This document shows, piece after piece, positions 30,173 through 30,241 of a stretch of DNA of 53,313 nucleotides. Where the stretch lies: IMG/VR virus record IMGVR_UViG_3300009164_000103, positions 1 to 53,313 of that record, one strand, 5' to 3'. Position numbers and translations under genes: made by a program. Within the stretch, counting starts at the first letter, position 1. Each line of letters starts with the position of its first letter. The notes under the pieces are model-generated. The model searched no databases. It saw nothing but the letters and a program-made list of their open reading frames with translations, and was not told the origin of the DNA. Source of the stretch: a virus.

Positions 30173-30241
30173 GGCTGTTGCCGACCCCCGTAAGGGGTTT
30201 CGTCCCGTGCCAGGGGACTCATCAGGGCGGGGTTAGCAGCC
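30173..30241 (-). ncRNA. Type I hammerhead ribozyme B
   Basis: On the - strand, GCC-CUGAUGA, stem II (GUCCC..GGGAC, 30202-30218), GAAA (30198-30201), stem III (CCCC-UUACG-GGGG), the cleavage triplet GUC, then GGC. Stem I closes with GCC/GGC and, beyond an internal loop, GGCUG/CAGCC. The GGCUG strand lies in the last codons of the upstream gene. Cleavage is predicted after the C at 30183. The stems differ from those of ribozyme A by paired changes, while the core and the GGCAACAGCC 3' product start are identical. Confidence 0.92.

Follow-up and report, generated by a model that had tools for sequence, protein, structure and literature searches.

Arrays of hammerhead ribozymes are known from prophages. 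Perreault et al. 2011 (PMC3088659) described clusters in which several co-oriented hammerheads are arranged around single phage-type genes of an operon, with all three hammerhead types represented. A pseudoknot between the stem I side and the stem II side was described in the same work, and mutation revealed its effect on speed in a type II example. Tandem phage-type hammerheads cleave in vitro, and one array does so in E. coli (PMC3088659). It was proposed that such arrays cut operon transcripts into gene-length mRNAs (PMC3088659). In a 2017 review the role of prokaryotic hammerheads is listed as open (PMC6155905; our comparison is limited to the open-licence literature). Gut phages have small ribozymes for RNA processing too, namely the HDV-like theta ribozymes (PMC10879173).

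The locus studied here lies in a 53.3-kb IMG/VR virus record, which was analysed at its full length and is called the window below. Its terminase and portal genes assign it to the tailed phages, and the region of about 16.5-32.5 kb consists of minus-strand genes. Two hammerheads, designated A and B, occupy gaps of one operon in this region; they are co-oriented, lie about 493 nt apart and are on the same strand as the genes. The arrangement, the potential for pseudoknot pairing between the stem I and stem II sides and the possible gene-length products resemble the clusters of Perreault et al. (PMC3088659), but the phage group and the genes are different. Unlike in those clusters, some gaps behind orthologous genes contain a ribozyme and others lack it when this phage and its relatives are compared, and one operon interval harbours differing hammerhead types. 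Theta ribozymes belong to a different class and are sited at tRNA 3' ends, unlike B (PMC10879173); no tRNA was found in the window. B is ordinary in kind, and its arrangement is already known from phages. It is informative through the comparison of relatives.

Position and structure of the ribozyme

B is located on the minus strand between the stop codon of the gene P0002 (30233-30235) and the ATG of the gene P0001 (30156-30154). P0002 (30233..30490, minus strand) encodes an 85-aa Cys-rich protein with the conserved C-terminus CGCEDYPCCGC; the motif CGCEDYPCCG is common to the C-termini of many phage proteins of unassigned function. P0001 (29755..30156, minus strand) encodes a Cys-rich protein of 133 aa and lies between the cut sites of B and A.

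In the 5' to 3' direction of the minus strand, B starts 4 nt past the P0002 stop TAA with the stem I 5' strand GCC (30226..30228). It is followed by the catalytic core CUGAUGA (30219..30225), the stem II hairpin GUCCC-CUGGCAC-GGGAC (30202..30218), with UGGC of its loop as the putative pseudoknot strand, and the core GAAA (30198..30201). The stem III hairpin (30197-30184) and H17, which is C 30183 of a GUC site, come next (together 30183..30197), and the predicted cut falls between 30183 and 30182. The next segment, GGCAACAGCC (30173..30182), includes the stem I 3' strand GGC and the proposed pseudoknot partner GCC and is the predicted 5' end of the downstream mRNA. The cut would leave a 26-nt 5' leader (30157..30182) with AGGAG ahead of the start codon.

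B (minus strand, 30228-30173) satisfies every sequence rule of type I hammerheads: C3 U4 G5 A6 N7 G8 A9, G12 A13 A14, the A15.1-U16.1 pair and H17 are all present, and there are no core-adjacent mispairs. Its stems have 3, 5 and 5 bp; stems II and III are closed by loops, and stem I is open and short. The full descriptor (core, three stems and UH) has A and B as its sole matches in the window, with zero matches in 60 dinucleotide shuffles of the window and zero in 4.16 Mb of reversed loci. Sequence, consensus fit and placement of B are established. The sequence strongly supports its identification as a hammerhead of type I that lies between two genes and has its predicted cut 26 nt ahead of the second one. 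The initial sequence-only reading had the core, the GUC triplet, the five-pair stem II and the minus-strand placement at 30173-30241 right, and the sequence also bears out its statements that GGCAACAGCC follows the cut in both A and B and that 26 nt separate the cut of B from the ATG at 30156.

The Rfam model RF00163 (Hammerhead_1) has the same core, three stems and type I order as A and B, but it scores the two at 19 and 17 bits, under the gathering cut-off of 34, which is a database threshold and no defining biological feature. Nearly all type I phage hammerheads in the scanned loci also miss this cut-off. Since the pseudoknotted subfamily scores below it, routine annotation overlooks such ribozymes. 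Thermodynamic folding provided no discrimination. The stability of B is ordinary (z 0.24), and its minimum-energy fold differs from the hammerhead (-25.6 kcal/mol versus -18.0 for the bare ribozyme and -23.6 with the outer stem, the pseudoknot energy being uncounted). Translation across B from the AUG of CUGAUGA, which would be in frame with P0001, was considered and rejected: in A such a frame is closed by a stop. Among the listed matches of the wider set, a frame through the ribozyme is open and in frame in 15 of 109 cases.

A (29682..29735, minus strand) is built on the same plan as B. It has a GUA cut site, a predicted cut between 29692 and 29691 and a 44-nt leader, and the gene P0003 (29303..29647, minus strand) lies downstream. 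The stems of A and B had been read as differing by paired changes in both stem II and stem III. This holds for stem III, where the second pair is C-G in B and G-C in A, the only two-sided change between the two ribozymes; the stem II difference is that a C-G pair of B corresponds to C-C in A. The description as covariation within one genome was therefore overstated, being reduced to this one change and, when five homologues from other phages are added to A and B, to two compensatory pairs in all.

Another feature of this operon is the palindrome TGTCTCANNNTGAGACA, which occurs nine times (0.02 expected), at positions 26765, 28850, 29661, 30784, 31527, 31553, 31872, 31908 and 32484. The copies occupy minus-strand gaps, often directly 5' of a gene start, and are likely to be either operators for a phage regulator or hairpins of 5' UTRs. 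The related phage G011 carries GTCCAAATTTGGAC and GTCCAAAATTGGAC in positions of the same kind.

Related hammerheads in other phages

A pattern scan with fixed stem II returned at least 119 viral stretches, and application of the descriptor to viral loci yielded at least 166 unique hammerheads in at least 91 loci, with up to nine per locus. Genes in these loci were called by simple ORF rules rather than by a trained gene finder. Among the matches listed, 119 of the 154 testable hammerheads (77%) are placed between a stop codon and a start codon of their own strand, compared with 21% of random same-strand positions, and the median distance from the cut to the start is 26 nt, the same as in B. 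In the loci L073, L037 and L081, phage DNA of 11-15 kb contains seven to nine hammerheads, most of them ahead of gene starts.

For the subfamily defined by the core and GGCAACAGCC or a near variant, the matches listed contain five homologues, in three other phage contigs only (L068, L090 with three copies, and L230). GGCAACAGCC recurs unchanged in A, in L068, in L230 and in two of the three L090 copies, and the ribozymes again lie close behind a stop codon and ahead of an ATG. With these established homologues, 97.3% of the structure cells in the subfamily alignment are paired, against 19-41% in slid controls, the alignment being small. L230 has two genes in common with the window. A loose GGCAACAGCC pattern matched 119 stretches; of the newly fetched loci only L230 has a descriptor hammerhead, and the remaining matches look like chance. 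No subfamily member was found in bacterial genome contigs, and a DNA search of INPHARED returned no match.

The 3-bp stem I of B could be extended by an outer stem GGCUG/CAGCC, the 5' strand of which sits in the last Gly-Cys codons of P0002 (stop at 30233), as had been noted from the sequence. The location is correct, but a role of these bases in the ribozyme was rejected. The outer stem has 5 bp in B and only 2-4 bp in other members (3 in A). The gene end that it uses encodes the C-terminus CEDYPCCGC, present in many relatives, and in the relative G005 the gene ends in the same GGCUGC with no ribozyme behind it. Because the conserved Cys-rich protein end explains these bases, the sharing of bases between gene and ribozyme does not appear to be a designed feature.

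A pseudoknot between loop II and the leader is a better candidate for the tertiary contact of B than the outer stem I. Pairing potential of the kind UGGC/GCCA is established in all seven subfamily members, in each of which the leader GCC is complemented by GGC of loop II; these three core pairs are invariant within the subfamily. In distant hammerheads the two strands are altered and yet complementary (e.g., UAGC/GCUA and GGUU/AACC). Among the matches listed, loop II is complementary to the strand behind the cut in 26 of 43 phage hammerheads with a short stem I, versus a mean of 16.5 and a maximum of 24 for shuffled loops (1000 shuffles), a test that is somewhat inflated by related sequences. 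From this pairing potential we infer that the pseudoknot forms in B.

Gaps with and without ribozymes in related phages

A single-sequence viral scan gave no confirmed relatives of P0003 and GP88, and relatives of GP88 were reached through the terminase instead. The phages obtained in this way also have early genes in common with the window. The terminase large subunit of the window contains an insert of about 330 aa (about 38270-39260; start CLTLNG..., CTPDHRI, end VLAHN|C) that looks like an intein; most close relatives have a terminase gene without an insert or with a different one.

Homologues of P0002 are encoded by G012 (88% aa identity) and G005 (67%), and neither has a hammerhead in the gap after the orthologue. 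No B was found beside relatives of P0001 in 80 loci. A custom descriptor for type II and type III permutations gave no convincing match in G003, G005, G010 and G012. Two further relatives, G006 and G011, retain GP88 and the MoxR-like ATPase (60-62%), and the small genes between them mostly differ. The GP88-MoxR interval of G006 has a type I hammerhead of 30.5 bits with U4 of the core changed to C. This CCGAUGA variant (L409 13462, minus strand; G006:33413-33467), a test case of variation in the core, has strong stems and lies directly behind a stop codon. The hammerheads of G011 are two of type II that score 38.8 and 40.2 bits and so exceed the Rfam cut-off, one directly upstream of GP88 and the other in the GP88-MoxR interval. 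Both (L410 128-194 and 1806-1871) begin at the last codons or the stop of the upstream gene, and the pseudoknot partner strand of the second (1806-1871) adjoins the ribosome-binding site. A 91-aa gene adjoining GP88 is followed by a hammerhead in G006, and its G011 homologue by none.

Loss of the core in relatives that keep the flanking genes had been named in advance as evidence against the ribozyme. Such a situation exists in part, as P0002 is kept without a following hammerhead, and it means that B was gained or lost rather than that it is inactive. A search of the same gaps in metagenomic relatives, which had also been suggested, was negative after the P0002 orthologues and recovered other hammerheads from the same operon interval (G006, G011). 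The difference between gaps after orthologous genes implies that the element comes and goes close behind stop codons and the neighbours stay.

Discussion

B probably cuts a polycistronic phage mRNA co-transcriptionally, once, with its 3-bp stem I held by the loop II-leader pseudoknot. B would fold while RNA of the minus-strand operon of accessory genes is being made and would cut directly past the P0002 stop, 26 nt ahead of the P0001 start. Since B is of type I, its catalytic body would stay on the upstream mRNA, whose 3' end would consist of the folded core with a 2',3'-cyclic phosphate; at the beginning of the downstream mRNA would be a leader with a 5'-hydroxyl and its own ribosome-binding site. 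Together A and B would split the message around single genes, so that neighbours could differ in mRNA stability and translation. Operon cutting was proposed for phage hammerhead arrays by Perreault et al. 2011 (PMC3088659); for B, we infer both the activity and the effect on expression. This reading is supported by the full consensus match with zero chance matches, the homologues, the stop-start placement, the complementarity of loop II to the leader, the other architectures in the relatives' interval and the published cleavage by phage-type arrays. The preferred alternative fold, the Rfam scores under the cut-off and the absence of B where P0002 is kept are points against it.

The same inconstancy would be expected if A and B were passenger modules, spread or kept mainly as elements that recombination carries to the borders between genes in a variable cassette, with little effect on expression. 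The gaps after P0002 in G005 and G012 and after the 91-aa gene in G011 are consistent with this, as are the occupation of different gaps by one subfamily in different phages and the differing gene content of the GP88-MoxR interval among relatives. Against it stands the strong bias to the sense strand and to a short, steady distance from the next start, and the cores are intact, with stem changes that preserve pairing; we regard this explanation as unlikely. It is very unlikely that B is a decayed, inactive ribozyme. The predicted misfolding, in which upstream CCCC pairs with GGGGG of stem III, would agree with decay, but all core positions are intact, stem II is better than that of A, and the homologues in other phages are intact.

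A and B, both of type I and in the same orientation, enclose exactly one gene, and they could also excise a 491-nt RNA with the whole of P0001, the ends of which would be joined into a single-gene circular phage mRNA. These ends would be a 5'-hydroxyl and a cyclic phosphate, and retrozymes and viroids have such ends joined to each other, which counts in favour of this idea. Nevertheless, many phage loci carry a single ribozyme, and Perreault et al. looked in similar arrays for RNAs that had been spliced or circularised, without finding any (PMC3088659); a circular mRNA is extremely unlikely here.

With co-transcriptional cutting as the preferred reading, the related phages provide a natural comparison for what the ribozyme changes, in the form of gaps with and without it after orthologous genes. 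The pairs are the gap after P0002 in this phage versus G005 and G012, and the gap after the 91-aa gene in G006 versus G011.
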